Positions 2,534 to 25,210 of a stretch of DNA of 64,000 nt are shown in pieces; position 1 is the stretch's first letter, and each line of letters opens with the position of its first letter. The DNA is from a virus. The position numbers and the translations under genes were made by a program. Location: positions 81,070 to 145,069 of IMG/VR virus record IMGVR_UViG_3300033153_008203; one strand, 5' to 3'. Under the pieces are notes generated by a model. That model was not told the DNA's origin and ran no database searches. It saw only the letters and a list, made by a program, of their open reading frames with translations.

Positions 2534-3763
2534 TTATACACTCCTAACAGTAATGGGTGACTGGATCGATTGTTCTACTATTACTCTTTCATCAGAGAAT
2601 GCTATATAGTCACTGATTAGCGTTTGTCTTGTTCTGTTATCTGCTATTCTAGAGTCCCTATATATAAACAAGCTATCAAAAGGCTTGCCTGTTCTTCCTA
2701 TGTTTTTAATTTCTTCGCTTATATTAAGTATTCTACTGACAAGTTCCTGATTAACAAACTCTTCGCCTATATCTAAATTATTAATATATGAAATTATCTC
2801 GTCTTCGACTAGCGCTTCAATGGCAGTTTTCTGGTCAGCTGTTATTGCAGAACGATAATTTATAGAGACTGACACTTCCATACCTACGTATTTTGGGGCA
2901 CGTACCACTGCACTATTCCCGAGAGACTTCACTCTATCAATAATCTCCTGAACTTTATCAAGTAGTGCACTTGAAACAGTAGGGTAGATAGACTTAACAT
3001 ATACAGAAAAGCTACCTGAACCCCTATCATAAGGTACAACAGATACGTCTGCAACCCCTGCAACTCCAAGTGCTGCTAGTGTTATCGCTGTTAGATTTGC
3101 AGTTTCTGATCCTACTACAGCATTGCTTATTCTATATCTATAGTTTGTGTCTATCTCTCTATCAGTTCCTCCTGCAATACCACTAACATTTGTTACCTTA
3201 AGTGCGTCATTTTGATATCCTGTATACCCTGTAAAGTTATGAGTATTAATTGCGCCGGCACCAACTGACGCCCTAGATCCTGCGCTCCTACTTATAGCTG
3301 ACGCATATACCTCAGTTGCTGTTGTGCCAAGCTCTACATCTTCATAGGTAATGTACTCTATTGTTGTAGTAATTCCTGCTATTGTAGACTCTGCTGCAAG
3401 CACTGTTCCCTTAGAGACTATTACCGGTACTCCACCAGTTATGTCGCCAAACGTTCCAGATATCACATAGAACTTTATGTTACCGTGTGATGCATCTGTA
3501 TTTGCCTTTTGCGCTTCTTTTCTAACAACCCCAACCAGTTCACCGATTAAGTCTAGATTGTCTCCAGATGCAGTACGCACAAATGCTTCAGCAATCTCAA
3601 GATCGAAACTTTCAGCAAGTCTGCCATGCTCATTTGCCATGAGCTCAAGTATTGCTCTAGCTTTTCCACCAGGAGTTGTTTGAGTTATACCTGTAGTGTT
3701 GTTTAATATGTCTAATGAATTTTGGAGCGCAGTGTCTGCGTTATGGTAATTTGATATTGGCAT
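2534..3763 (-). CDS. Baseplate J-like protein (Mu gp47 / T4 gp6 family)
   Basis: This is a 409-aa protein with the layout of baseplate J/gp47 wedge proteins. The N-terminal helix has the pattern TTPGGKARAILELMANEHGRLAE and SGDNLDLIGELVGVVR (about residues 27-80). A beta-rich middle with repeated Gly/Ser turns follows, then GGTDREIDTNYRYRI near residue 200. The C-terminal half contains the family-typical VSINYRSAITADQKTAIEALVEDEIISYI. In other phages these proteins form the baseplate inner ring that triggers sheath contraction. It lies directly after the gp25/XkdS-like gene, the usual order in contractile-tail modules. Confidence is high for the family, moderate for details. Confidence 0.88.
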   Translation of the reverse strand: MPISNYHNADTALQNSLDILNNTTGITQTTPGGKARAILELMANEHGRLAESFDLEIAEAFVRTASGDNLDLIGELVGVVRKEAQKANTDASHGNIKFYVISGTFGDITGGVPVIVSKGTVLAAESTIAGITTTIEYITYEDVELGTTATEVYASAISRSAGSRASVGAGAINTHNFTGYTGYQNDALKVTNVSGIAGGTDREIDTNYRYRISNAVVGSETANLTAITLAALGVAGVADVSVVPYDRGSGSFSVYVKSIYPTVSSALLDKVQEIIDRVKSLGNSAVVRAPKYVGMEVSVSINYRSAITADQKTAIEALVEDEIISYINNLDIGEEFVNQELVSRILNISEEIKNIGRTGKPFDSLFIYRDSRIADNRTRQTLISDYIAFSDERVIVEQSIQSPITVRSV

Positions 3764-4968: not shown

Positions 4969-7900
4969 TTACTCCAATACCTCACTAAAGACTTCTGCTA
5001 GCCCTTCTTTTACATCTTCCCATGCATCTTCGACATCATCGAAAGCCTCACCGAACCTATCGCTATACGCCGACCACAACGTATTGTGTTTGAATCCTTC
5101 TATGCCAGCTACAAATGGAACCTTATTAACAACAAGAGGCTTAATAATAATTGGCTGGCGCTCTTGAGTTTCTTTGATATAAACTGATCCAATCCCATAT
5201 AACACAAATGCACCAACTGCGAAGATGCCACGCTTGCCTACAGTTTTGTAAGCCACACCCAAGAGCCCCTTAAATCCTCCTCTAAGCTTTAGTGAAGCAC
5301 CGCCTTTTGCTTTAAAATCAGTGACCTTGTTTAATAATGTAGACCCTGTTGCCGTAATCTTTGTTTTGGCACCAACTTTAGCTGCACCATATGCGTCCAC
5401 TGTAGCCGTGCCTAGTCCTACTGACCTAATATAGTCTCTTCCCTGCCAATACTTAATTAAACCGGTCTCAGCCAAATCAACTACTTTACCTTTACCGTAT
5501 AACGAGTATATGTATCCAGTTTTTGCTGCACTCTTTATTTTGTCTCCAGCAATTAGTCCTTTTAGAATACCTGTTTCAGTTGCGCCTTTTACTGCCTTTT
5601 CCACTACGCCTTTTGGTGTTGTACCTAACACTGCTCCTATTACATGGGGTGCAGCCTTTACACCTGCAAACCTTAATTTTGACCAAAGAGCACCAGCTCC
5701 TAAGTACTTCAGATAGTTTATCTCTCCCATTGCTTGTTGCAATGCCATAGTTGCATACTCATTTCCACTAACACAAAGATCTGGAATTATCTCTGTTATA
5801 AATCCAGTCTCACTAGAGAAATGATGAACAACTTGCTCTACTTCTACAGGACCATACATATCAGCTATGTCGTCAAAAACATGACACACATCATATGGTT
5901 TAATCTTTGGATTTCCTAGTACGGTAATGCTTCCAGTATACACGTCTTTTAGATGTCTTAGAAGTAATCCTTGTGCATATCTAGTAGCCATAAACTCTCC
6001 TTCACAGTTTGGCTGCTGAGAGAACAGTAGGTTTACATTCTCATCTCTAAGATCTTTATCAACTTTAAGAGTTTTCGTATTACCTGTCTTATAGTTAACG
6101 TTACCATACTCATCTATCTCTTTTACATCATCGACATATTGCACAGTTACTGCATTATAAACGTCTGCATTTACCTTTATATCGTTTGATATGATATTAA
6201 TCTTATCCGCCAAATAAAAATGCTTTCTGAATGGAGTAAATCTGTCTCTAACTATACTTTTTCTTATATTGACAGCACTCTCATCTAGCTCTACTGGAAT
6301 ACCTGATATACCATCTCTCCTTCTGTTTTGATTAAGCAGTGTTATTGCTGTACTATGTCCAGGCACTTCTTTCCTAAGCGGAGAATTCTTTTGATACTCT
6401 TCTATTGTCTCAGGCCTACTCCAATGTCCCATATCTGGTACACCAAAAAACATCGACATCCTGTCGCCATATATTGTAGGCGAAGCAATCCATCCTGGAT
6501 GTCTAAGCTCCATCTCCTTAAAGATGTCCCATATGGTAGTATGAAATATCTTGTAGTCAAGATTAACATATCTTTCTACCATTCCGGTAGCAAATCCATG
6601 CATAAAAAGACCTGCAGTTACAACTCCACCTGTAGCCGCTCCAGCAGTAATTTTAGCAGATGCTACTAGTAGACCGCCATCCCAAAATGCTGTCTTAAAT
6701 CCTTGTTTAATGCCTTCTGCTATGTTTAGATCCCAAGCAGATCCTCCCCAATCAAAGAAATTGCTATCAGTTAAATACAACTCTATACTTGGAGGAAAAA
6801 TATTATCATCTCTTGGATCTAGATTTGGACCATACAACGAGTTTCCTGCTGACGCTATCTCTTCTTTACCTGTAAGAATAATATTAGCAATAGCTGTTTT
6901 CTTTCTAGTTCCAAAATGAACAACTTCTGGAGATTGCATTATCTTAGCAAGCAATCCACCTGTTATTTTCTCAGGTTCTTTTTTTATTTCTTCAGGCTCT
7001 TCTACTCCCTTTATCTGACTAACAAGCTCTGTTGCATAACTCTGACATACAATTGTAACTGCATGTGTTCCTCCAACCTCTACTATCTGTCCATTAAAAA
7101 CAGTCTCCAATTTTCTCGGGTCATTAGAGTATCCTAGTCTTACCTGTATTTTTTGTCCAGGTCTAAGTATTAATGCATCTATTGGATTCTCTGATAAAGA
7201 CTCTTTGTCTGTTCCTCTTGTCTCATAGAACTTGTCATCATCACCAGCATTATATTTTGCAACACTAGTTAGTTTTTGATTCAAGTTAGACATTGTCAAT
7301 ATGCACAAGTCTGCAGGAACTTTTCTGCTCCTGATTATTTTAATATCATGTACAGCATTATACCCAAAAAAGTCATCAAAGCTTAATCTTGGAATCAAAT
7401 GAAACTCTTCGTCTTCATCTTCTTCAATAAAGTATACCTTGTATGTTGGATAAGCCCTGTTCATTGTAAAGATTTCATCGTCATGCGCTTGATCAACTAG
7501 TGTGTCAAGCATACCTTTTAGTCCAGTTTGACTAAAATCATGAGACTTTACAAACTTTTCATTTATTTTAAAGTAGTCTGTCTTTGTACTGTTGCCGTAC
7601 TCCTCTGGTCTCTCATGACCATTTGTAGCTGATTCTCCAGACCAAACATCTGCTGGTCTCCATTCTTTCTGTACTGTCTCCATTTTCATTGCTATCTCTA
7701 ATGACTCTTCAGCATACTGCTTAGTATCATTAAGTAGCTCATTAAAATACTCAGTGTGATTGTCTTCGCTCCAGAAATAATAGTCTGGATCGGTGTCTAT
7801 AGGCTCATTTGTTATTGTAGTTGGCAAATTCAAGTCTCTATAACACTCAGTTAAAGACTGTGTTCTGAGCTTGTTTATTTCTTTATCTACACTCTTAAAT

Positions 7901-10083
7901 TGATCTAACTGAAAAATCCCGTTTCCAAACATACTCCAAAATTCATTAGATAATTTCTCATATATCTTTGCAGGTATTGCAATATTAATAGAGTCATCTG
8001 GTTCATAGTCCATAGCAGCTACACCTGCGCCTGCTGCACCTGGTTTTCTTTTTGCAACTATTTTTGGTTTCTTAGAGCTTATCAGATCTTTTACTTTTTT
8101 ATCAAGGCCATAGATGCTACCCATATTATCAACATAACCGCTATGCACATCTTCGTTAGCAATGTAGTCGTTTAATATGTCTACTACATTGTTTATGTGC
8201 GACTCAAGAACAGGACTATAGTCTTTTATGTGTGGACCGTACTTACTCTTTACACCTTGTGTTCTAGTGCCTGGGCTAAAAGTTGCTTGGGCGCCTTCTA
8301 CTACAATATCTGCCCAGGACTTTTTAGTGCCTCCATAATCAGCGTAGGCTTCTTGCCCAATAAATTTGCTCATTGTCCCATGCTCAAGATACCTGTCTAT
8401 CAACGAGAATGCCTTAGTTTTTATCTGCTTATTGACCATAACATCTTCTCTAGAGAATCCTTCAGTAAACCACGGATCATACTGTGCAACACTAAAAACA
8501 AATATGTCCATATCTGGATTTCCAGGAACTGTTGATGATTCAGTATTATCTGTTAAACAATGCTCTAAACCAAAAAGTCTCGTAATCGGATTTACTATTG
8601 TGAGAACATTGTTATCTCTTATTCTTTTAAATTCGTTCTCATTATTATGTGCTGTGTTAAGCGCCAACTTTATATTGTCTATTTGGTCGTTTCTTAATCC
8701 TTCTAATGCAAATATTGCTTTAGTATGTTTGCCACCCATATACTGAGTAGTAGGGTATTCATGTCCGACTATAGGGATAGAAGTAATATTGTGCGTCAAT
8801 GACACATTAACACTGGTAACTGCAAGCCTATCATTGCCTTGAACTATCGTCTGTGATGCCTGTATCTTCCATATGTTTCGTGCATTTGTAGGTAAGTAAC
8901 CAGTGGACCTTTTCTGTTTAAGAAAATCAGTATACACTCTCATGTAGTCTTCATTGTCAAGCGCATTTTTCTTGTCGCTTATTAGTGATCCAATAGAATG
9001 GTTTTCCCTGATTATCTCTTCTACGTTCTTTTTACCAAGCTCTCCTGTGTAGCTAAAGTGCCATGGTCTATCTTTGTTTGGAGTAAAACTATTATCTTGT
9101 GCTATTGCAACAAATGACTTATATCTTTTGTCATTATAGTACTTACTCTTAAGTTCTGTTATCCCAGTAGCGCTGCCAATAGAGTGTAATATCAAATCAA
9201 ATGCTAATCCAGCCATATGCTCATTCATAATAGCTTTATCTTCTGTCTCATCTGTATAAAAATCTATTCCGCCGGCAGGAATAAACATATTTGAAACAGG
9301 CATCCCTACTCCATACTTCCTTTTATAAAGCCTAGCAAGATGCTTAAAGGTACCAGTGGCATTTCTATGCATCTTTGAGCTAGGACCAATAATTCTAGTG
9401 TCGCTAGTATTAGAAGAGAACAATGTCTTTCCTATCTCTGCTACTTCACTTTCTGATAAGTGTCCAGCTGTTGGTGGCGTATCTCTCATGTAAGTATTAT
9501 ACGCTAGAGTTAAATCATTGTTTGCAGCAGTAATAGTTGGGATAGCATTTAGCACTCTTTGGAATCCCTTTTGATACAAGTTAGATTGAGTTGGGTCTAT
9601 AACCTTTTGATACTTGTTTTTCTCATCAATTCTTGGTCCAGTAAGCTCATTTTTAAAAGAGAAGTCAGGAGAATAAGGAAGATAATTAAACAATGTCATA
9701 TCAAAATTCGCGAACAACGATTCAGGTAGATCAGGCACCGTATAAACACTAAGGTTACTAAGTGTTACAGCAAGATTAGATGACTCTGTTACTTCTGATA
9801 ATGCTGCATTGGATATATATCTACTGCTAATATGAGCAAATGGCGACACCTTAAAGTGCGCTATCAAATGTCTTAGTTTATTGTTGATCTCATTTGTATT
9901 TGGAAACGCCATTTCTGCAGACACTACAAATATAGATCTGCCTGAACGAGCCCCTGTCGGAGTACTCTGTCTAAGGACATGATTGTACGCATTCATATTT
10001 CTCTTATGAAGCTGTATTCTAGTTGTATTTGCAGTCAGATCAAGACCGTTTAATACGAAATCATATGTTGGATTATCAGCCAT
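4969..10083 (-). CDS. Giant baseplate hub protein with M15 (VanY-like) peptidase domain and gpD/gp27-like hub domain, 1704 aa
   Basis: A very large multi-domain tail-tip protein. Residues ~230-350 match the M15 D-Ala-D-Ala carboxypeptidase/endopeptidase pattern: H289-x6-D296 (in EHMAGLAFDL) and H342 (in RPWHFSY) are the expected Zn ligands. The residue three before H342 is Arg339 where M15 enzymes usually have the catalytic Glu (EPWH); Asp338 lies one further upstream, so activity is uncertain. Residues ~960-1030 carry a gpD/gp27-type hub segment (LRPGQKIQVRLGY, VFNGQIVEVGG). Hydrophobic stretches occur near residues 1150-1175 and 1630-1650. Its start lies 3 bases past the stop of the predicted polymerase gene. 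I infer a hub that also opens peptidoglycan during injection. Confidence 0.85.
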   Translation of the reverse strand: MADNPTYDFVLNGLDLTANTTRIQLHKRNMNAYNHVLRQSTPTGARSGRSIFVVSAEMAFPNTNEINNKLRHLIAHFKVSPFAHISSRYISNAALSEVTESSNLAVTLSNLSVYTVPDLPESLFANFDMTLFNYLPYSPDFSFKNELTGPRIDEKNKYQKVIDPTQSNLYQKGFQRVLNAIPTITAANNDLTLAYNTYMRDTPPTAGHLSESEVAEIGKTLFSSNTSDTRIIGPSSKMHRNATGTFKHLARLYKRKYGVGMPVSNMFIPAGGIDFYTDETEDKAIMNEHMAGLAFDLILHSIGSATGITELKSKYYNDKRYKSFVAIAQDNSFTPNKDRPWHFSYTGELGKKNVEEIIRENHSIGSLISDKKNALDNEDYMRVYTDFLKQKRSTGYLPTNARNIWKIQASQTIVQGNDRLAVTSVNVSLTHNITSIPIVGHEYPTTQYMGGKHTKAIFALEGLRNDQIDNIKLALNTAHNNENEFKRIRDNNVLTIVNPITRLFGLEHCLTDNTESSTVPGNPDMDIFVFSVAQYDPWFTEGFSREDVMVNKQIKTKAFSLIDRYLEHGTMSKFIGQEAYADYGGTKKSWADIVVEGAQATFSPGTRTQGVKSKYGPHIKDYSPVLESHINNVVDILNDYIANEDVHSGYVDNMGSIYGLDKKVKDLISSKKPKIVAKRKPGAAGAGVAAMDYEPDDSINIAIPAKIYEKLSNEFWSMFGNGIFQLDQFKSVDKEINKLRTQSLTECYRDLNLPTTITNEPIDTDPDYYFWSEDNHTEYFNELLNDTKQYAEESLEIAMKMETVQKEWRPADVWSGESATNGHERPEEYGNSTKTDYFKINEKFVKSHDFSQTGLKGMLDTLVDQAHDDEIFTMNRAYPTYKVYFIEEDEDEEFHLIPRLSFDDFFGYNAVHDIKIIRSRKVPADLCILTMSNLNQKLTSVAKYNAGDDDKFYETRGTDKESLSENPIDALILRPGQKIQVRLGYSNDPRKLETVFNGQIVEVGGTHAVTIVCQSYATELVSQIKGVEEPEEIKKEPEKITGGLLAKIMQSPEVVHFGTRKKTAIANIILTGKEEIASAGNSLYGPNLDPRDDNIFPPSIELYLTDSNFFDWGGSAWDLNIAEGIKQGFKTAFWDGGLLVASAKITAGAATGGVVTAGLFMHGFATGMVERYVNLDYKIFHTTIWDIFKEMELRHPGWIASPTIYGDRMSMFFGVPDMGHWSRPETIEEYQKNSPLRKEVPGHSTAITLLNQNRRRDGISGIPVELDESAVNIRKSIVRDRFTPFRKHFYLADKINIISNDIKVNADVYNAVTVQYVDDVKEIDEYGNVNYKTGNTKTLKVDKDLRDENVNLLFSQQPNCEGEFMATRYAQGLLLRHLKDVYTGSITVLGNPKIKPYDVCHVFDDIADMYGPVEVEQVVHHFSSETGFITEIIPDLCVSGNEYATMALQQAMGEINYLKYLGAGALWSKLRFAGVKAAPHVIGAVLGTTPKGVVEKAVKGATETGILKGLIAGDKIKSAAKTGYIYSLYGKGKVVDLAETGLIKYWQGRDYIRSVGLGTATVDAYGAAKVGAKTKITATGSTLLNKVTDFKAKGGASLKLRGGFKGLLGVAYKTVGKRGIFAVGAFVLYGIGSVYIKETQERQPIIIKPLVVNKVPFVAGIEGFKHNTLWSAYSDRFGEAFDDVEDAWEDVKEGLAEVFSEVLE

Positions 10084-10085
10084 TC

Positions 10086-13000
10086 TTAGCCCTCTATTAG
10101 TCTATCTATCATTTCAGCGGTTATTGTCCTTGAATTGTCATTTATATTAACGTTAACATTAGAAGGCATTTTCATTCTTTCCATTATTTTTTGGCTTATC
10201 TCATTATAGTCTACATTTGCAGATTCCCTACCCCTAATTCTTACAACGCTTGACATAGGAGTTGTGTTTTGATCTACCATTGCCTTTGGCGTATGCTGCA
10301 TAGCTTGTGGTGAACCTACTTGTCCAGCCTTTAATTGGCCTCCCTGTATACTCTCTGGATGTATATACTTAGGCTTAGCCTGAAAATTTAAGTCAGGTAT
10401 AACCATCTCTCCTGCTGATCCTCGTGGAGGTCTTGATGGTGGTGCCATAATATTATGTCCGCCAAAAGGAGTCTCTTCTCTAGATTTTGCACCAAGATAA
10501 AAAAGTCCTCCCGCCAAAGCAGTTGCTGCTGCAACCATTGCTGTTCCTTTACCCATACCAGCAAATTGACCTTTCATCATAGTCTTCACATTAGCAGTAA
10601 GAGTTTCTACAGCAGAATATCCAGTTGCTCCTGATTTCATTGACAAAATAGGATCAGGCATCATAGCACCATGCATTGATCCGCCTGCTGCGTCTGCAGT
10701 TCTCAAGACTCGCATCGGATCACTTGCAAGCCTTAGTGCTGCTGCAGTAGTTGGTCCTTTGCGACCAATGTGCATAAATGCCTTTAGGTCTTCAGCTTTT
10801 ACTGCTGAACCTTTCCTTGCCTTTAAAGATCTAGTAACTATTTCCTCGACATCTATTCCTTGTTCAGCAAGCTTACTCAAATCAAATCTTTTGCCTACCG
10901 CTTCAGATATTTGGCCTGCACCTTCTATTATGCCTTCAGGACTCCTGGCACCACGAATAGCTTTCATTATTCTTTGCGACTCTCCAATCATTGCTTTAGC
11001 TTCTGCTGGAGTCATGTGCTTTGCAGATATGATTTCCTGAGGAACATTTTCATACAATTGCTGTGCACCTGCTATTATTTTTTTATCTCCAGATGCAGCA
11101 GCGCTTTCAAGTATGTCTTCAAATGCAACATCTAATGCTCCTATTTCAGATGTAACTGCCATCTTTAACTGTTCTCCTAGCTGACTGAATTCAACTGCTG
11201 CGGCACCAGATACAGCTCCTCGTTTTGCTCTACTGAATATCGCTGCTGATTTTGCAAAGTCATCAAAGGTAGCAGTAAGCGTTTTGTGCTTTAGCATTTT
11301 TCTAGCAGTTTCTTGTTCCCTTTTATTCATGACTGTTGTGACTATTACATTATCTCCATCATAGTCTCCTCTCAGCACTTTCATGACAGACTCGCTAGCT
11401 TCAAGCTGATGACCAAGTTCGTCAAGCTTAGAATCGTATCTTAGTCTAATTGGAAACGCACCTGTCTTACCTGTTATTGGATGTCTAGCTACTAAACCTT
11501 CAACAGCTTCTCCTCTTAAAAAGGCTTCACGCTGAGACTTTACAAATGCCTTATCGGTTGAGTCTGCCCACATCTTTTCCATAATATTGCGGCTTGCTTT
11601 AACCTCTGCTTCTCTTTCAATCCATCTTCCTGCTTCAGCAGAAGGAAATGGCCCTATGAATCCTGTAGCCTGACTCTGAACTCTCGTGTAAACAAAACCA
11701 GGAGTCTTGGCTTTACCTGCCGTAGCTCTAGCATATTGCGTAGAAAGCTCAATATCAAGATTCTTCATTGCAGCAGTAACGTCTTTCGCTGATTCCTTAG
11801 TCATTACAGCAGAAAGAAGTTCTGAGTATCTTTTAAGTGTTGATAGAGCCTCTCTTTTGCCAGCTTCACCAGGACGCGTTCCCATTCCAGTTACTTCAGT
11901 TATTGACGGCAAATACATATGCTTCTTAAGACCGTATGTCTTTTGTTGCTCTTCTGTAAACTTTAGCAGCGTGCCTTCTTGACTCCATATTGTCTTGTCA
12001 CTGGTTCGCCTAAGCATTGATCTATCAAGCTCCTGTGCACCAGCAAACTGTTGCTCTGTTAGCAGCTTAGAAAGGTTAGCGTCTCCAGCTACAGACAGCA
12101 TTGCTTTTCTTAGTTCTGTTACAGCTCCGTATGACTTGCCCAGTCTTCTTTGGCCTACAATCTCTGCGACTCCTTCTCCTGTAGGTCCTCCTAAACCGGC
12201 CTTCCATATTGCTCTTGTCTCAAATGATCCTTTTACCATCTCATGAGCACCAAGCTCTCCACCTGGAACAACCTGAGCTATACCAAATGCAAATGGGTTC
12301 CTTTTAATATATTCTAGTTCTTTTTCACTGAAATCTATAGCTCCAGACAGTATTGCACTGGATTCTTCTTTTATCTCTTTAGCATATGTGCCAAATACCA
12401 TTCCAAACTCAACACCAGTTAAGCCATGCTTTCTTGACAATGCTAATAGCTTACGCTCAACACCATATGCTTGGCCTTGTACGTCAGAAAGATACTGTAA
12501 TGGATCATCAGTAAACGCATTATTAACACCAGCTTGACTAAGGATATGTCTTAGCCCTGTTGTCATTTGATATTTTCTGGCTCTAGGATCTTTAAATAGT
12601 GCCTCATAATGCGTAAAAGCTTCTGGCTTAATTCCTGTTCCTGAAACTTTTTGTGCATACTTAGCTAACATACTTGACTCTTGAGGCCTCAATACACTTT
12701 TTACTCCACCTTCTCCAAATACTTTTTGGGCTACGCCTCCTCTTACTTGTCTTTCTATCTCTACTGTTACGTAATCGGTGCCTGATGCCTTTTTTACACT
12801 CTTTATTATGTCTGTAATATCGTCACCAACGGTTTGAGATATTAGCTCATCTAAGTCTGATGTCTTTCCACCATATACAACCTCTCCTGCTGCAGTTGTT
12901 GTCTTTAGCAGCTCACGTCCCATACCTAGTCGTGCTCCTGCTGCCAACCTAACAGGTTTCCCTGTTGCTTGTGCTTCGACTATTTCTGGTGCCAAAGGAA

Positions 13001-14519
13001 GAATTCCAGAGCTCTCTAATATACGATACTTACGTGTTGACTGAGTATTAAGCATTTCTGTAATCGTATCTGAAACTGCTATCTCTCCTTCTCTAACGCC
13101 AAGGTCCATCATGTCAGGCATATACAGCATTGGCATATTAAGGTCTCTTATATTGGCCATCTGTATTGCAGCTTCAGCTGTTACTGTCTTTCTTATTCCT
13201 CTTGCCTTCTCAAACATTCTTACACTCTGTACTGCATCACTAGTAAGAGTTGTTTCAGGCCTTATAATATGAAGAGGTTTTCGCGCCCAACGTGTCTCTT
13301 CTCCAAAAGGAACAAGCTTAGTCAAATCTACACCACGCTGAAACGGATAGAACTGTCTACCACCTTCGGTTCTTATTATCTCTCCTTTTGGGCTATAGAA
13401 TATGCCCGGTCTTGCTACTTGTTTCTCTATCCATGCTGGCAAATCTTCTGGAGCCATATCTTTTGGCAACTCTATATTGACTCTACTTGAACGCATTGTT
13501 TCCCAAACTCCAGAGACTCCAGTTTCAGGACCAGCAGGCATAGCTTGAGGAAAAAAGTCCCCATACAGTTTTCTCATGTCTTTTAGATTGTCTTTTCCTT
13601 CCGCCTTAAAATGATGTAATCCAGCATCCCACTTAGCAAGCAACCCATTCTTATTGACAAGGTCTTCTATAATGAACTCTCCAAAGTTTAATAATCTTCC
13701 CTTGGCTCCTTGACGCTCAAGAGTATCTACCTCTCCAAATATGTTAGATGCGAGAGAACTTACGGGCACACTAGAGGTCAATGGTATCTGCATTGTACGT
13801 CTTGCCCTATCAGCTCCAGTTGCCTTGCTTATTCCGAACTGCATGACTGGTGCACCTGCGATCTCTTTAATACTAAAACCAGTGCTTACATCAAACTTAT
13901 CAGGAAAGTTTTTACCTACAAGCTCTGAAACTCTAGCATGTAGCTTAGTTGCATGTCCTTTGTGTGTGCTTCTATTAGTAATATCTAATACTTCTTCAGG
14001 TGCAAAGCTATATTCGGTTGTTAGTCTCTTAACGTCTAAGTCGTCAACCATTGCAACTTGAGACCTTACATTCTTCATCAAAGATGTCCTTCCCATTCTT
14101 TGGGAAAGATTCTCAAGCTTCTGAACAAGTTCTCCAGAACCAACTGATGGAAGCCCATCAACCTCTAGCAACCCTTCGTTTCTCATTAGGTCTTGTACAT
14201 CTGCAACACCTAAATGCCTAAAGGTCTGCATTAAAGCATTACGAGTAGCATGCTCTAACTTGAAGCGCATATTCCTATCCCCTTTATTCTGAATCCTAAT
14301 CAAGTCCTGAAGAATCTGCTGATTTACAGTCGTAGCTTTTACAAATGGCTCTTTGCTTCTAGGGTTAATCATGTTCTGAAGTCCCAGTCTGCCTTGACGA
14401 GACTTAAGCCTATATGGGTCTAAAGAATCTTCTACTGTCTTAAAGTTATACACGCCCTTAACATCACGAAGATGTTGCTTGAGACTTCTATTCTGTTTTT
14501 TTATCTTATTGTCTGACAT
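10086..14519 (-). CDS. Predicted single-chain two-barrel (double-psi beta-barrel) RNA polymerase, virion-associated, 1477 aa
   Basis: Two active-site signatures of multisubunit-type RNA polymerases occur in the canonical order in one chain. First, K599-VFGEGGV-K607, within a beta-type context that starts VTVEIERQVRGG, matches the RpoB KMAGRHGNK lysine pair with the same 8-residue spacing and both glycines. Second, RHP at 1012-1014 is followed 40 residues later by GDYDGDNVIV, with D1052, D1054 and D1056 equivalent to the RpoC metal-binding NADFDGD; the next ~20 residues also align without gaps (xxQxxARxM). The C-terminus (about 1322-1342) has a hydrophobic Gly/Ala segment and ends in a polar tail. 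The ATG at 14519 (TAATG overlap with the upstream stop, SD AAGGAAGG) is preferred over the TTG three codons earlier. The gene lies at the tape-measure/ejection-protein position, so I infer a polymerase packaged in the virion. A non-catalytic structural role is the alternative. Confidence 0.85.
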   Translation of the reverse strand: MSDNKIKKQNRSLKQHLRDVKGVYNFKTVEDSLDPYRLKSRQGRLGLQNMINPRSKEPFVKATTVNQQILQDLIRIQNKGDRNMRFKLEHATRNALMQTFRHLGVADVQDLMRNEGLLEVDGLPSVGSGELVQKLENLSQRMGRTSLMKNVRSQVAMVDDLDVKRLTTEYSFAPEEVLDITNRSTHKGHATKLHARVSELVGKNFPDKFDVSTGFSIKEIAGAPVMQFGISKATGADRARRTMQIPLTSSVPVSSLASNIFGEVDTLERQGAKGRLLNFGEFIIEDLVNKNGLLAKWDAGLHHFKAEGKDNLKDMRKLYGDFFPQAMPAGPETGVSGVWETMRSSRVNIELPKDMAPEDLPAWIEKQVARPGIFYSPKGEIIRTEGGRQFYPFQRGVDLTKLVPFGEETRWARKPLHIIRPETTLTSDAVQSVRMFEKARGIRKTVTAEAAIQMANIRDLNMPMLYMPDMMDLGVREGEIAVSDTITEMLNTQSTRKYRILESSGILPLAPEIVEAQATGKPVRLAAGARLGMGRELLKTTTAAGEVVYGGKTSDLDELISQTVGDDITDIIKSVKKASGTDYVTVEIERQVRGGVAQKVFGEGGVKSVLRPQESSMLAKYAQKVSGTGIKPEAFTHYEALFKDPRARKYQMTTGLRHILSQAGVNNAFTDDPLQYLSDVQGQAYGVERKLLALSRKHGLTGVEFGMVFGTYAKEIKEESSAILSGAIDFSEKELEYIKRNPFAFGIAQVVPGGELGAHEMVKGSFETRAIWKAGLGGPTGEGVAEIVGQRRLGKSYGAVTELRKAMLSVAGDANLSKLLTEQQFAGAQELDRSMLRRTSDKTIWSQEGTLLKFTEEQQKTYGLKKHMYLPSITEVTGMGTRPGEAGKREALSTLKRYSELLSAVMTKESAKDVTAAMKNLDIELSTQYARATAGKAKTPGFVYTRVQSQATGFIGPFPSAEAGRWIEREAEVKASRNIMEKMWADSTDKAFVKSQREAFLRGEAVEGLVARHPITGKTGAFPIRLRYDSKLDELGHQLEASESVMKVLRGDYDGDNVIVTTVMNKREQETARKMLKHKTLTATFDDFAKSAAIFSRAKRGAVSGAAAVEFSQLGEQLKMAVTSEIGALDVAFEDILESAAASGDKKIIAGAQQLYENVPQEIISAKHMTPAEAKAMIGESQRIMKAIRGARSPEGIIEGAGQISEAVGKRFDLSKLAEQGIDVEEIVTRSLKARKGSAVKAEDLKAFMHIGRKGPTTAAALRLASDPMRVLRTADAAGGSMHGAMMPDPILSMKSGATGYSAVETLTANVKTMMKGQFAGMGKGTAMVAAATALAGGLFYLGAKSREETPFGGHNIMAPPSRPPRGSAGEMVIPDLNFQAKPKYIHPESIQGGQLKAGQVGSPQAMQHTPKAMVDQNTTPMSSVVRIRGRESANVDYNEISQKIMERMKMPSNVNVNINDNSRTITAEMIDRLIEG

Positions 14520-17500
14520 TAAATCCAACCTTCCTTAACAGCGTTCTCGAATCCAACCTGCAATGAATCCCTTGTTATATCAAGATCTATTATGTTTTGC
14601 GGGTCCTTCTTTAGAAACTTATCTACAGTAATATTAACGTCTTCGACCCCGTAACTAGCTAAGATATCATGTAAAGCTGCTCTCATATCACCTGCTGACA
14701 TATCACCTTCCATATGTGTGACCTGCTCGATTGCATCTTCATCTATGTATGGTTTGTATGGAAGAGTCTTTTCTCTTGACTCCCAAAGATTAAAGTCATG
14801 CACATCTTTTCCTTCATTCTTTACCACAACAAACTTAATATCCTCTAAGTCTGTCTGTGGATGAAACCCTACGAAATCATTCCTAGGCAATGGATGACTT
14901 TTAAAGTAGTCTTCCAGCAATCTCTCACGTTGAAAATCTGCATAGCTCATTGCTATATCTTCTGAGACATCATCTTCATAGTTTTTATAGGCAGCCATAG
15001 CAGACGGATCAACTGCTTGACCTTCAGATATTCTTCGCCTATGAAGCTCCTCAAGCATCTCATGTTGTTCAGTAGAGAGACTTCCTTTTATTTTTCTCTC
15101 AGCAAACAGCTGATTCATCATGTCAAGATTCCACCTAGCTTGAACCAAATGACGCTCATGCTTCGGCAACATGTCCATTATGAGCTCTCTCTCTGATTCT
15201 GTAGATGCACGTGCAAATGCATCGAAATAAGGCTTGTCTCTCTTTTGCATCGCAAGCAATCCGTTAAGAGGATTTCCATATGGATCAGCTCCAAATGCTG
15301 TCCTACGTCTTATCTTTTCGTACTCTTCAGCAGTCTCTGTATCACCTTGTGTAAGCGCCAGATTCTTAAGTCTTGTAAACTTAACATACTTTAGTTTGTC
15401 AAAGTATTCTTCTATCTCGTTTCTTTCTTTTATGTGTTGAGGTAGCTCTCTCACACCTGCATACTTATATCCTGCATAATGAAGCATTGGCCTCAAGAAG
15501 TTCTCCCATGGCCTATCCCAAAATGCAGCAGATGTTCCGTATGCCTCTGCAGCAGCATACTCTTCTACAGCAGTCCTTGTCTTAGTACCAAGAAACTTAT
15601 GGAACGGAGAAAAAGGAGTCAGATATTCTGACGGATCATCAATAGCACGAATTCCAGTTTCCCAATATGCTCCAACTAGTTGCTCGAATGGATTATACGC
15701 AATCTGACCTGTTAGTTGTCCTGCAGACGCTTTATCATATTCAGCAAGCTCTGCTTCAAGCAGCATCCTATTTAGATTAACTCCTTCTCCAGTCCTGACT
15801 ACAGCTCTTATTTCTGGCTTATCTGATTTTGTTTTAGAGTACTGCCTTAATATATCTCCAGACATCTCTATCTCTACCTGAGTTCCAGCAGCTACACCAA
15901 GACCTGCAAGCTCTCGTGATGCTCTCATTCTCCTTTGATTAGCCCTGATTCCTGCTTCTTGTTGTGTAAGCTCGTTGTTTTCTTTTATGGCCATTCTAGA
16001 GAATGCTGATTGGCTTGTCTTTAGTCCTGCCATGGCTATTGTGACACCAGGCATTTCTTCTATCTCAAACTTGCCAGGCTCTATCATCTTGGAAATAGTG
16101 ACAGTTCTTGTCTCAGTTTCACGATCTATAAACTGCTTCTGTTCTCTGAATTCTTTAAATATTTTTTTCTGTTGCAACTGATCCTGAATCGTCTGATAAA
16201 GCTGCTCATCTCTTTCATTAAGAGTTCCTTGTTTACGCAGGCCTTGAACCATTTGCTTATAGAATTTAGTCTGAGGAGAATAAGGAGACACATCAGAAAG
16301 AATCTTATATCTCCACATTAGTGAATAGTTTTTTGGATCTATTCCCTCAAGCTCAGGATAAAGAGCTTCCATTCCTCTTCCCGGTAAGCGTAACTCTCCC
16401 TCTAGTATTTTGCCAAATGCAAAACCATGTTGAAAGTCAGGAGAAGGCTGGCCAGGTCCAGGCAACCATCCTGGCATTGTATTTTTTATTGGATTAAATA
16501 AATCTATGCCTCTACGTCTATGCGGATATAAACGTCTGAACAGCTCTGTTGAGAGCGCTCCACCACCAATTTGGAGGTCCCAGTAGGCTCTCTCTATTCC
16601 AGTGGCTCTACTGGCAGATTCTAGCCTCTCATACTGATCATAGAACTCCTCAGTACCGGTTAACATGCCTTTTGCTACAGTTAAACTATAGCCAGGTAGA
16701 CCGAACATTTCTGTGAGCCTATAAGCCTGTTCACCAAATGCTTGTGTAGGACTGTATGGGTCTACAGGTATTCCTCTAGGAATCTCTCCAAGATCATATG
16801 CTGGTGTCTCACCAAATGGTCTAGGCAACCTTTTAACTTCCATCTGCCCAGGTCCATATCCATATCCTTCTAGCTCTCCTTTCATCTGTCCAATAGGAAT
16901 AGACATCTGTCCTGGATCAGCTATACCTGGACCAAATCCTGCTGGTCCAAACGATGGTCCAACTTGTCTCATCCATTCTTCGGTATGCATCAGCTTGGAA
17001 GGCTTAATTACCTGTCCAATTGTTGCTGCAAGCATTGGCCCAATGAAAGGAACATCTTCAAATGCTGGAGCTGTTACTGGAAACGGGAACTCATAATAAT
17101 GTTCTTTCTCCCACTTGTATGGATCCATTAAGTATCCAATAGGATTATATATTGGATCAGATAAGATCTTCTGTCCTTCACTTCCATATAGGGCTTTAAC
17201 TTTTCCCCGCGATAAATAAGACGGAATGAAGTGCTTACGGAAATACTGTATGCGCCCGCCTTCATAAGGAGAATTGTGAACAAGAAATTCTCCTGCCACA
17301 AACAAATGATCTTCATCGTCTATCTCAAAATCATAAACTATATCATCATAATTATATGTCTCAACCTTTCTAATAACCGAAAACAGTCTTCCATCATAGA
17401 TTTGCATAGATCTATTAGAACAGTTATTCTTAGTATAAAATCTTAATCTCCATTTTCCTTTAAAGTCATTCTCTTCTTTTGGGCCTATCCCACATAGCAT

Positions 17501-19888
17501 ACCTAAGTTAAGAGCCATTAGCCGCACATCTTCAAGCAAGTGTTTTCTAGAAGAGCTTATAATCATAGCAAACTTATCAAGATGCCCATCTCCTCTCCAA
17601 TATCCTTCAATCAAGTCTTTCTTAAATGCATCTGGAGCATCTAAGAATATTCTTGGAATACACTTGTCATTAAGCTTATGATCATTATCATAGAATAATC
17701 CATAAAAAAGCTTTGCTAAAATACTACTGCATATTCTGACTATCCATGCACCTTCTATAGCTTTAGTAAAATTAGTCCTATGTTTAAAGGCAGGAGTTAT
17801 ATTAAAATATTTTTCACAAATCTCTACTATATCATCAACTATCCATTTCTCTGACACAGCATGTACAGTTTCTATAAACTGTGGAACTTTACCATCTCTA
17901 AAAGAAAGATTTCCTTCTGCTAAAAAATACCCAAATAGTCTTCCTATATCAGCATTTAAGACTATATCACTAGAGATAGAATGTTTTCCACTCCTTTGGT
18001 AGTTTTTTGTATGCCAATTCTTTTGAGCAGAGTAAATTTTACCGTATTGCTCTATAATAGGAAAATCTATAAAATCAGCAGCACTTATAGTCTCAACACT
18101 GTTTTTAAGTTTTCTAAAAGGAGTCTCTACAAAGTCTCCATATTTAATATTCCTAGCTTCTTCCTCTATCAATTCTCCTTTTCTAATGATTGGCACAATA
18201 TGATTCCCTGTCAGGTCGGTAGTATTGTCTCTATCGAATGCAGAAGAAAAGCTATACATAGTTTCATTTGCATCTCTAGTATAGATGTCTATGACTTTGA
18301 CTTTTCTATATCCTCTTCCAACTAAGATATCCCCTACTTTGATATCTTCTGCACTAATGCTATGGTCCATGAAAAGCTTGCAAGTAGTTGATTTCATTAA
18401 ACATCTTCCGGCCTCCCACCAGCGACCTTTTCTTATTGCAACTTCTTTTTCACCAGAGTATATCGCTGCAAGCTCTTCCGATGTCTCAGTACCTGCTATT
18501 GCTCCAGGAAAGAACGGTGCTGCAAATGCTAATCCAAGAAGTCCACCTGTTCTCCTCAATGCACTAGAAAGATTTCTTTGTTTAAATCCTAGCTTCTTAC
18601 CTATTCCAAAGAACGTATTATAGTTCTTTTCCTTAAACTTATTGGCAGCTATCAACGCAGCTTCAGCAGCGCCAACTCCTGGCCTCATTGCTTCACGTGC
18701 AGTATAGGCAAGTCTGGCTCCATATGCACCGAAGCCAAGCATTGCTCCTTTAAGTGGGAATGCAGATAAACCTAGTAAGCTTGTAGATCCTGGTGCTATC
18801 TCTTCCTGACGAGTTGCATACTCTTGCATGCCAGTGGCTTCCATAAGCTTGGCTTTCATGATCTTTGCTTGAGCATAACCACCAAGCACTGTTCCGCTTA
18901 TCATGTTACCAGTTGCATAGTCAGCTAATTGAAATCCTTTCCATAGTGCTACAGCCGGCAACACTCTTCTTGTAAGGTAACGTCCTATAGTCTGATGTGC
19001 TACACCAGGCTTTATCTCTGGAAACACCTTGTTAAACGCTTTTGCTGCTAAAGAGCCTTGTACTTTTGGCCCAACTTTTGATTTTATTTTGTCAGCCAGA
19101 TCACGCATTACTGGCAGCTCTGCTATCTCTGTAGGTGAAACTCTGAGAATCCTGTTGGTCATCTCAGTTGCACTTGTAAAGCCAAACCTAGCATAAGCGT
19201 GTGCTATATTTCTTCCACCTATAGGCAAGAACTCTTTAGTTGAGAACTTGAGATCGTCTGCACCTATTGCTCTGACATAGTTTTTAAAAAATTCCGCCTG
19301 ACCAAGTTCCCTATATGTTCTGAGCTTACTAGCTCTACCAAGTACTGTAGCGCCTAGTCCTTGTTTTTTAGAAACGTCTGCACCAATCCTAAGCTTACCT
19401 TCACTGAGGACAAGACCTCTTGACAAGATGTCGTCTTTATGCTTAGTAAATACATCTTTACCTAGAAGCTTTCCAAGATACTTCTGTCTACTTGGGTCGT
19501 CCCAGAATTGGCCTCTCCATGTTGTTTGACCAGATGCAACTCTTTCTAGTGGACTAAGTGCTTCACTTACTCTAAACGTAGATAGGATTTGTGCAGGTGA
19601 TGCCCGTTCAACGAATTTGGCTGCACCTATATATTTGTCCCATACCCTATCTTTCAGTGAGTATGCGACTCCTTTTTGTCCTGGTAATGGTATCGCTCCT
19701 GCTGCAAATACTGCTGCACCAACCATGCCTGCAGCTGCAAGTATAGATCTCTGTTCTCCTTCTGAGACAACAGGACGCTGAGGACCAGCTGCCCACATTG
19801 TGGGTTCAGTTGCAGGTGTACGATAATCTGTTTGAGTAACAGAAGTATTTTGATTTATTGGGAATCCAGGTATATCAGGTCTTGACAT
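14519..19888 (-). CDS. Giant virion protein at the tape-measure position, interrupted by an intein (1789 aa; extein 1412 aa)
   Basis: The precursor is 1789 aa; removal of the 377-aa intein (residues 496-872) leaves 1412 aa. The extein family is not recognised. It has a hydrophobic Gly/Ala segment at ~49-69 and another at ~447-465, just before the motif GRWWEAGR/SPYEGGRIQYFR that the intein splits. The remainder is long, helical and charged with Pro/Gly-rich parts (FGPAGFGPGIADPG), and lacks the simple coiled-coil look of a classical tape measure. It follows the tail chaperones, so it is either the tape measure or a partner of the predicted polymerase encoded next. A strong terminator hairpin lies just upstream and the ATG has no visible Shine-Dalgarno, pointing to low expression. 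Confidence 0.85.
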   Translation of the reverse strand: MSRPDIPGFPINQNTSVTQTDYRTPATEPTMWAAGPQRPVVSEGEQRSILAAAGMVGAAVFAAGAIPLPGQKGVAYSLKDRVWDKYIGAAKFVERASPAQILSTFRVSEALSPLERVASGQTTWRGQFWDDPSRQKYLGKLLGKDVFTKHKDDILSRGLVLSEGKLRIGADVSKKQGLGATVLGRASKLRTYRELGQAEFFKNYVRAIGADDLKFSTKEFLPIGGRNIAHAYARFGFTSATEMTNRILRVSPTEIAELPVMRDLADKIKSKVGPKVQGSLAAKAFNKVFPEIKPGVAHQTIGRYLTRRVLPAVALWKGFQLADYATGNMISGTVLGGYAQAKIMKAKLMEATGMQEYATRQEEIAPGSTSLLGLSAFPLKGAMLGFGAYGARLAYTAREAMRPGVGAAEAALIAANKFKEKNYNTFFGIGKKLGFKQRNLSSALRRTGGLLGLAFAAPFFPGAIAGTETSEELAAIYSGEKEVAIRKGRWWEAGRCLMKSTTCKLFMDHSISAEDIKVGDILVGRGYRKVKVIDIYTRDANETMYSFSSAFDRDNTTDLTGNHIVPIIRKGELIEEEARNIKYGDFVETPFRKLKNSVETISAADFIDFPIIEQYGKIYSAQKNWHTKNYQRSGKHSISSDIVLNADIGRLFGYFLAEGNLSFRDGKVPQFIETVHAVSEKWIVDDIVEICEKYFNITPAFKHRTNFTKAIEGAWIVRICSSILAKLFYGLFYDNDHKLNDKCIPRIFLDAPDAFKKDLIEGYWRGDGHLDKFAMIISSSRKHLLEDVRLMALNLGMLCGIGPKEENDFKGKWRLRFYTKNNCSNRSMQIYDGRLFSVIRKVETYNYDDIVYDFEIDDEDHLFVAGEFLVHNSPYEGGRIQYFRKHFIPSYLSRGKVKALYGSEGQKILSDPIYNPIGYLMDPYKWEKEHYYEFPFPVTAPAFEDVPFIGPMLAATIGQVIKPSKLMHTEEWMRQVGPSFGPAGFGPGIADPGQMSIPIGQMKGELEGYGYGPGQMEVKRLPRPFGETPAYDLGEIPRGIPVDPYSPTQAFGEQAYRLTEMFGLPGYSLTVAKGMLTGTEEFYDQYERLESASRATGIERAYWDLQIGGGALSTELFRRLYPHRRRGIDLFNPIKNTMPGWLPGPGQPSPDFQHGFAFGKILEGELRLPGRGMEALYPELEGIDPKNYSLMWRYKILSDVSPYSPQTKFYKQMVQGLRKQGTLNERDEQLYQTIQDQLQQKKIFKEFREQKQFIDRETETRTVTISKMIEPGKFEIEEMPGVTIAMAGLKTSQSAFSRMAIKENNELTQQEAGIRANQRRMRASRELAGLGVAAGTQVEIEMSGDILRQYSKTKSDKPEIRAVVRTGEGVNLNRMLLEAELAEYDKASAGQLTGQIAYNPFEQLVGAYWETGIRAIDDPSEYLTPFSPFHKFLGTKTRTAVEEYAAAEAYGTSAAFWDRPWENFLRPMLHYAGYKYAGVRELPQHIKERNEIEEYFDKLKYVKFTRLKNLALTQGDTETAEEYEKIRRRTAFGADPYGNPLNGLLAMQKRDKPYFDAFARASTESERELIMDMLPKHERHLVQARWNLDMMNQLFAERKIKGSLSTEQHEMLEELHRRRISEGQAVDPSAMAAYKNYEDDVSEDIAMSYADFQRERLLEDYFKSHPLPRNDFVGFHPQTDLEDIKFVVVKNEGKDVHDFNLWESREKTLPYKPYIDEDAIEQVTHMEGDMSAGDMRAALHDILASYGVEDVNITVDKFLKKDPQNIIDLDITRDSLQVGFENAVKEGWI
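17273..18403 (-). mobile_element. Intein with LAGLIDADG homing endonuclease in the giant virion protein (377 aa)
   Basis: The intein begins at Cys496 (CLMKSTTCKLF...), has a block-A-like KVGDILVGRGY shortly after, and ends with EFLVHN followed by Ser873, the expected C-terminal His-Asn and +1 Ser nucleophile. Two dodecapeptide-type endonuclease motifs are visible in the middle, LFGYFLAEGNL and IEGYWRGDGHL. The block B-like TGNHIV is also present. All elements for self-splicing and homing look intact. Boundaries are read from the N-terminal Cys and the HN/S junction. Confidence 0.93.
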
Positions 19889-23281: not shown

Positions 23282-25210
23282 TTAGATTAATGCGCTAAGC
23301 GACAATACTATAGTGATTTGTCTTAACTCGAATGCAGGGACAAGCTTAAGTTCTATTGTTGCATCACCTTGTATCTGTTGTACAGGCGTAGATGTAACAG
23401 ACAAAACAAATCCTTGTATGTATCCTTCTCTCTGAAGTGACCCTAGTCCAGCATCAACTGCAGTTTCAAGCGCTGCCCTTCTCTGAGCTGTGTTTGCTTC
23501 TCCAACGAATGGATCGGCTACTGCTCTTACAACATCTATAGCATCTTTAACGATCCTCACTGTTGAAAGTCTAACGTAATCTGAACTCTGTCTTGCAGCA
23601 GTAGGAGCATCAGCAACAACGGTTCCCTTAGGTCTAAGAGCAAGCATTGTATACTTGGCGCCAGCAAGATTATCAAGCACAGTATTGTTTAAGCCATGTA
23701 TTGCCCTTACAGAAGGGATTACCTTGTTAGTAGGTGCTGACTTAGACTCAAGAGACATAATCAGACCAGCATAGCTAGGTGCTCCGTTTGTGACATATCC
23801 GTTAACATTTGTTGTCCACTGGTTGGCAAGCCTTCCATAACTTGGAACAACTGATATGTATTTACCGATATCAACAAGCTCGTTATTCTGATCAGAGATT
23901 TCTGAACCACCTAAGTTTCCAGAATCAGTAGCAATAAAACCACCTTGTGCATCTCCACTTCTGTAGCCTGCTGATCCAGCCATAAACTTGTTTCCAAGAA
24001 GGCCTGATCCATTGTCTCCAGCATCATTTATAAGTCTGCTTCCGTCATCTAGTACAGTATACGTTGGAAGTGATCCAACCCAAATTGCAATGTCTTTTGG
24101 ACTAAAGCTTGTTGGAGGAAGCATTCCTATTGTACCTATACATTCATTGTTATTTACTGACAAGTTGAAACAAAAGTTTGCCAACTGATAACCAAAATTG
24201 ACCTCAATAAAGCTGCTAGCAGTTAGAGTATCTCCAGCTGCATTGGTTGTTGCTGATGCACTAGCTACAGATGGATAAATATTACACCCAGCATCAGTAG
24301 TAAACACATCTCCAAGATCACCCTGAGGATTAGATGGCAACCACCAGTAGAAATAATTCTCTCCTTGGTACTCTTCGATGTAAACTCTTCCAAGAACGTC
24401 CTTCTCACCATTTGTTACAGGATAGTCTGAAAGCGCAGCAAGACCAAGATCAGTTACGTCATCTGATGTCAAATCAACTATGTTTGTATCATCGACATAT
24501 GCGTCCATAGGAATTACCATGTCGATTCTTTCGTTCTCAAGTGCCTTGTATGTATTATACAGATACTCGTAAAGCTTCATCCTTGATGGATCAGTACCGT
24601 CTGTTCCTGCTGTATATAGAGCTGTTATTCCAGAAAGAGCATCTACATCCTCAAGAGGAATTGCTCCTGTAGCAGAATCAGTACCTATTACTTCACCAAA
24701 AGTTCCGCCAAGAACAGAACCAGATACAATCACATCAAGTGTATCTATTTCGCTTCCAGACTCATTACTATATACTAAAAAGTCATCAGAAGCTCGCCAT
24801 ACTTTAAGTAGGCCGGCATCACCGTTCTCATTAAAATCAAAGTGAATGTTATATAGAGCTCCAGCAGTATTGTCTTTATCTGAAGTCTCTACGATATAGC
24901 CATAATCTCCAGTTGCTGCAAATGCTGTATTACCAACACCTTCAAGCTTAGCTGAAGTAGCTCCCATCCTATATATTCTTACATTTGTTGCACCGCCATC
25001 TTTGACCTCATACAGTCCTCTTACAAGAGTTCCGCTAAGTCCAAATTGCGCTACTGTGTCAGCAGTTCTTACTACTCTAGTTAGTTGGTCTCCGGCGCCT
25101 TGTGCTGATGTTCCCAATACAACTGTATTAGGTGCAGTTTCAGGCGTAAATATATCTAGACCACCATCGATTTTCTCACTGAAAACCCCAGGTAAATTTT
25201 CGAAAGCCAT
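23282..25210 (-). CDS. Contractile tail sheath protein, 642 aa
   Basis: The N-terminus (FENLPGVFSEKIDGG) and the early beta-rich region (APNTVVLGTSAQGAGDQL, TVAQFGLSGTLVRGLYEVKDGG) are typical of sheath proteins. The C-terminus ends in the sheath-type tail domain with TVRIVKDAIDVVRAVADPFVGE, GLGSLQREGYIQGF and the final strand IELKLVPAFELRQITIVLSL. The size is within the usual range (450-720 aa). It makes this a contractile-tailed phage. A large, probably surface-exposed middle domain (residues ~100-450) is Gly/Asp-rich. Confidence 0.93.
   Translation of the reverse strand: MAFENLPGVFSEKIDGGLDIFTPETAPNTVVLGTSAQGAGDQLTRVVRTADTVAQFGLSGTLVRGLYEVKDGGATNVRIYRMGATSAKLEGVGNTAFAATGDYGYIVETSDKDNTAGALYNIHFDFNENGDAGLLKVWRASDDFLVYSNESGSEIDTLDVIVSGSVLGGTFGEVIGTDSATGAIPLEDVDALSGITALYTAGTDGTDPSRMKLYEYLYNTYKALENERIDMVIPMDAYVDDTNIVDLTSDDVTDLGLAALSDYPVTNGEKDVLGRVYIEEYQGENYFYWWLPSNPQGDLGDVFTTDAGCNIYPSVASASATTNAAGDTLTASSFIEVNFGYQLANFCFNLSVNNNECIGTIGMLPPTSFSPKDIAIWVGSLPTYTVLDDGSRLINDAGDNGSGLLGNKFMAGSAGYRSGDAQGGFIATDSGNLGGSEISDQNNELVDIGKYISVVPSYGRLANQWTTNVNGYVTNGAPSYAGLIMSLESKSAPTNKVIPSVRAIHGLNNTVLDNLAGAKYTMLALRPKGTVVADAPTAARQSSDYVRLSTVRIVKDAIDVVRAVADPFVGEANTAQRRAALETAVDAGLGSLQREGYIQGFVLSVTSTPVQQIQGDATIELKLVPAFELRQITIVLSLSALI

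Follow-up and report, generated by a model that had tools for sequence, protein, structure and literature searches.

The stretch of DNA analysed here (the window) is 64,000 nucleotides long and comprises bases 81070-145069 of the 145,069-bp IMG/VR virus record IMGVR_UViG_3300033153_008203. At 10086..14519, on the minus strand like all window features listed below with coordinates and no strand of their own, lies an open reading frame (ORF) of 1477 residues, counted from an ATG at 14519 that has AAGGAAGG ~9 nt upstream; an in-frame TTG start is found at 14528, and residue numbers counted from it are higher by 3 (K602 = K599, R1015 = R1012, D1055 = D1052). The ORF and its predicted fold support well the assignment of this gene to the single-chain two-barrel RNA polymerases, with the active-site residues intact. 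The residues in question, in ATG numbering, are the basic pair of the beta-type barrel in KVFGEGGVK (K599/K607; 12699..12725), R1012-H-P1014 (11478..11486) and the metal-binding triad D1052-Y-D-G-D1056 (11352..11366), which sits 445 residues beyond K607. Both the basic pair and the triad are in one open frame, unlike barrels that are split over separate subunits, and none of 2000 shuffled versions of the protein contained the composite motif. Further along the chain, a conserved Q-x2-I-S-A-K-H (11016..11039; I in 29/30, K in 28/30 and H in 28/30 homologs) is possibly a trigger-loop element, and a similar Q-x2-I-S-x-K occurs in the KLEB-like clade introduced below. A hydrophobic segment that may span a membrane (10488..10544) lies near the C-terminus; in most homologs it is found ~150 residues before the C-terminus, and the most hydrophobic segment falls at ~0.90-0.95 of the length in 27 of 33 homologs.

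Used as the sole query, the 1477-residue protein has no match in viral contigs, phages, PDB, Pfam or NCBIfam, and scans of bacterial and archaeal genomes found no relatives. Plasmid matches at E ~1 were dismissed as chance, and a Pfam GH127 match over 947-1050 (E 0.0075, below the cut-off) as noise. Relatives were reached by synteny instead, through the two flanking genes: a conserved virion structural protein, here labelled UP, directly upstream (14519..19888, interrupted by an intein) and the T4gp27-like baseplate hub, the next gene downstream (4969..10083; phrog_4930 baseplate hub, phrog_52 tail protein). With alignments of these two proteins, ~100 IMG/VR loci were reached in a lineage that consists of relatives of phages 0305phi8-36, ME3 and KLEB27-3. 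In ~100 loci the gene between UP and hub (the slot) encodes a protein of 1300-3000 residues. It was collected without use of its own sequence, which yielded 101 distinct slot proteins; 90 have at least 1300 residues, and 69 of these 90 are flanked by both UP and hub. DxDxD is present in 85 of the 90, compared with 25 in shuffles (maximum 33), and R-x-P occurs 28-60 residues before DxDxD in 66 of the 90, compared with 1.4 in shuffles (maximum 4), counts that are not independent events because the loci share ancestry.

Thirty full-length homologs with 16-36% identity share nine invariant columns, namely M1, G535, K602, G749, P874, R1015, D1055, D1057 and D1059 (TTG numbering here and in the next sentence), and the only invariant polar residues among them are K602, R1015 and the three aspartates. 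K610 is K in 28/30, with R in the remaining two, P is kept in 29/30 at R-x-P, and I1167, K1170 and H1171 are nearly invariant. A preliminary description of the locus had read K599-x2-G-x2-G-x-K607, R1012-x-P and D1052-x-D-G-D as polymerase motifs. Translation of the ORF places every one of these residues where it had been reported, and the triad and first lysine are conserved without exception (30/30 each; 33/33 for the triad in the larger homolog set). The glycines fare differently: those between the lysines are lost in homologs that read K-x-F-x(3-6)-K, and in DxDGD the G is frequently replaced by A, K, R, Q or D, whereas none of the three aspartates varies within the P0001 clade. Loss of the DxDGD glycine is normal, since the crAss-like phage phi14:2 has DFDID. 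The other clades, which profile comparison links to the window's clade at 95-99.9% probability, were aligned separately. Clade 2 has K-x-F-x4-K, R-x-P and D-x-D-x-D; clade 3 has K-x6-K, R-x-P and D-x-D-x-D; the ME3 clade has K-x6-K, R-E-P and D-x-D-x-D; and the KLEB-like clade has R-Y-P and D-x-D-G-D, and in five of its members the basic pair reads K-x7-R. The K-x(4-6)-K pair is kept in clades 2, 3 and 5.

Slot proteins also vary outside these motifs. Clade 2 members span ~1670 to 3050 residues, and in one of them (L109, 12310-20673) R-x-P and DxDxD are separated by ~1000 residues of charged, helical sequence, an insert that could be length-setting. KLEB-like slot proteins have an N-terminal region similar to a DEDD exonuclease domain (L002 25004-26503; L003 20513-24442); Moorella phage CDS0027 has a match to RNase_T (E 4e-6), and the stretch concerned has a homolog in KLEB27-3 gp034. 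For a putative virion polymerase, fusion to an exonuclease would be out of the ordinary. The Moorella phage has, in addition, a transposase gene between the slot gene and the hub.

The structure of residues 200-1300 (TTG numbering; 10629..13931) was predicted with AlphaFold from 30 sequences, with a predicted local distance difference test (pLDDT) score of 67 and a predicted template-modelling (pTM) score of 0.64; the better-predicted parts take in the regions around both motifs. In a Foldseek comparison with the PDB, 27 matches reached E<=0.001. Every one of the 50 matches listed is a two-barrel RNA polymerase; among them are beta' subunits, beta-type subunits of poxvirus and Pol I, the AR9 phage polymerase and QDE-1, the last over 676-720 alignment columns. 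The matches to beta', beta and QDE-1 (E 2e-4 to 1e-3) indicate that both barrels are present in the model. Among viral models (BFVD), an uncharacterised ME3 protein (A0A172Q021) ranked third with E 3e-8, followed by poxvirus and giant-virus polymerase subunits; ME3 gp036, which this structure search thus picked up, appears to be a polymerase of the same kind. The KLEB-like clade gave a weaker model (pTM 0.46) with 95 matches at E<=0.001, and its 50 listed matches are RNA polymerases, beta'-type where named, with AR9 first and phiKZ and bacterial beta' included. Because the catalytic residues are invariant and RNA polymerase folds are predicted in two independent clades, we read the protein, as had been proposed, as a two-barrel RNA polymerase whose active site is intact, and infer that it synthesises RNA.

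The surrounding genes identify the phage type. On the minus strand the genes run terminase, portal, head genes, sheath, tube-like proteins, UP, polymerase ORF, hub and wedge. This order, with a tail sheath protein (23282..25210; phrog_16991, E 8e-74) and a baseplate wedge subunit (2534..3763; phrog_6, E 1e-29), confirms the earlier assignment to a contractile-tail phage. UP has homologs among the virion structural proteins of ME3, KLEB27-3 and MTATph1, and the hub has homologs in the same three phages. Hub and UP together match only four records of the phage collection, which represent three phages (Acinetobacter ME3, Bacillus KLEB27-3 and Moorella MTATph1); further UP matches fall on the UP intein and are left out of this count. 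That intein has 377 residues (17273-18403), a LAGLIDADG-type domain and C...HN/S, and homologs that lack it read through; the terminase (40766-37758) matches the same intein-like PHROG, and the Pol III alpha gene (L006:9846-11513) has intein domains too. The hub matches phrog_20474 'endolysin' besides the 'baseplate hub' PHROG, a label probably inherited from fused cell-wall hydrolase domains. The phage encodes its own Pol III-type replicase and primase-helicase.

The catalytic residues are thus intact and under strong selection, the polymerase fold is predicted in two clades, and the slot between structural protein and hub is fixed. We infer packaging and injection from the gene position, the tight overlap of the ORFs, the conserved C-terminal hydrophobic segment, the annotation of the KLEB27-3 homolog as 'structural protein' and the precedent of gp96 in Thermus phage P23-45. 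On this evidence we consider it likely that the slot genes encode a new single-chain two-barrel RNA polymerase family whose members are carried in the tail by the hub, ejected, and used as a virion enzyme for the first-entering genes. The polymerase would be built into the tail beside the hub and would leave the particle with the DNA or ahead of it; it would then transcribe the first-entering genes as a virion RNA polymerase and might help to pull the DNA in.

Several points weigh against this reading. The Foldseek E-values are modest (~2e-4) and full-length TM-scores are low, and the single site that the lysines and aspartates would share is putative. Sequence-profile searches gave no match to a Pfam, NCBIfam or PDB polymerase, and the QDE-1/RdRP family PF05183 gave no Pfam match at E<=1. 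Alignment by hhalign to P23-45 gp96 (0.3% probability) and to the phi14:2 polymerase found nothing significant beyond the motif. Five slot proteins of at least 1300 residues have no DxDxD, one of them cut by the contig end; in such proteins the polymerase has possibly been lost or relocated (the four complete ones are at L003, L047, L050 and L061). Finally, the phage has several consensus sigma-70-type promoters, with near-consensus host-type CTTGACAAAA..GCTATAATA near 24, 35 and 132-136 kb of the record, and so is not solely dependent on the polymerase that it encodes. Transcription of some genes probably falls to the host polymerase, while a first set, or help with entry, would be left to the virion enzyme. 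A search for a polymerase-specific promoter motif found none; sigma-70-type promoters alone stood out, marginally over controls. Near-identical CTTGACAAAA-N-GCTATAATA promoters are found in the window at ~51387, 52608, 53088 and 54631 (minus strand) and in the record at 24025-24232 and 35208-35264 (plus strand), and several of them share the spacer GAAATTCC(T/C)(C/T)GC, which is more than sigma-70 needs.

A more far-reaching proposal is that across the lineage (0305phi8-36/ME3-like) an RNA polymerase serves as the tape measure, a membrane-anchored protein that would set the tail length, be ejected and transcribe the incoming genome, with helical inserts that tune the length, for example near the active-site loop in clade 2. 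We put this forward only tentatively and regard it as rather doubtful. In 2007, 0305phi8-36 orf146 (YP_001429637) was published as the tape measure on the basis of tail length (Hardies et al.; PMC2147016); by its flanking genes it occupies the same slot as the window polymerase. Phage 0305phi8-36 also has a separate YonO/QDE-1-like protein, gp99. In ME3 the slot is taken by gp036, which has homologs of 0305phi8-36 YP_001429636 and hub YP_001429638 on either side. A tape measure is expected between tail chaperones and hub; the slot does lie upstream of the hub, yet UP also stands in that interval.

It is considerably less probable that the protein is a true two-barrel RNA polymerase made late and left out of the virion, encoded among tail genes by happenstance. 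P23-45 also has a non-virion enzyme (PMC10770324), and the 145-kb record, which may be incomplete, yielded no further polymerase with DxDGD, so that the slot enzyme could serve other phases. Against this reading stand a position kept in ~100 loci, ORFs that overlap tightly, a conserved C-terminal hydrophobic segment, which suits an ejected protein, the 'structural protein' label in KLEB27-3 and the treatment of orf146 as a tail protein in the published 0305phi8-36 work. Another activity of the two-barrel superfamily, which takes in PolD and RNA-dependent enzymes (PMC7824862, PMC10770324), appears quite unlikely. QDE-1 is among the structure matches and clade 1 relatives have the N-terminal DEDD-exonuclease-like domain, which would suit a DNA polymerase D-like, primase-like or RNA-dependent enzyme, but the phage already encodes a replicase and a primase-helicase, and every PDB match listed is an RNA polymerase. 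A structural tape-measure or ejection protein with a dead polymerase fold is highly improbable: the assignment of the 0305phi8-36 slot from tail length, the clade 2 charged helical inserts of up to ~1000 residues between R-x-P and DxDxD and the few slot proteins without DxDxD are in its favour, but a dead fold would lose its catalytic residues, and these are the family's only invariant polar residues. Chance or convergent motifs in an ordinary tail protein can be practically dismissed: DxDxD alone is found by chance in ~28% of proteins of such length (25/90 shuffled), but the composite motif, its conservation and the fold are not accounted for.

If the virion RNA polymerase reading is correct, two-barrel polymerases carried in virions are a core feature of a large environmental contractile-tail lineage, beyond Thermus and crAss-like phages, and the link of tail ruler, ejection and transcription becomes testable in cultured phages. 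As a kind, the single-chain two-barrel virion polymerase is already known from P23-45 gp96 and the crAss-like phages; what is new is a lineage-wide family from contractile-tail phages that most of a large lineage has retained. We found no paper on a polymerase in the slot in the literature, where supplementary lists of the P23-45 paper might include some slot proteins.

The closest precedent is gp96 of the Thermus siphophage P23-45, a tape-measure-fused two-barrel virion RNA polymerase that transcribes the first-entering genes (PMC10770324). The earlier view that no example had been described in this setting needs qualification on this account, and it stands insofar as gp96 is neither from a contractile-tail phage nor a member of the slot protein family. 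Like gp96, the slot protein appears to be a single-chain two-barrel RNA polymerase encoded by a long-tailed phage at the position assigned to the tape measure, and in the gp96 family the triad and R-x-P are invariant. The spacing from R-x-P to D is 38 in gp96 (DFDGD), 39 in the phi14:2 polymerase (DFDID) and 40 here. However, gp96 is a 5002-residue fusion with the polymerase at the N-terminus, whereas the slot protein has 1477 residues (~1100 in the modelled core), no long tape-measure fusion and a C-terminal hydrophobic segment. Phage phi14:2 is short-tailed, and its single-chain two-barrel polymerase is, like the slot protein, encoded in the structural gene cluster. This enzyme (published as gp66, PDB 6VR4; gp077 in KC821624 by length and motif) has 2180 residues and no detectable profile similarity to the slot protein. 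It has been found in virions by tandem mass spectrometry. QDE-1 and YonO also have both barrels in one chain, and QDE-1 is among the best solved-structure matches; neither is known to be a virion protein. The multisubunit polymerases of the jumbo phages phiKZ and AR9 match the slot protein in the beta' barrel, and a packaged form is known in this group (PMC7598289), but these enzymes are split over four or more polypeptides, whereas the slot protein is one chain.

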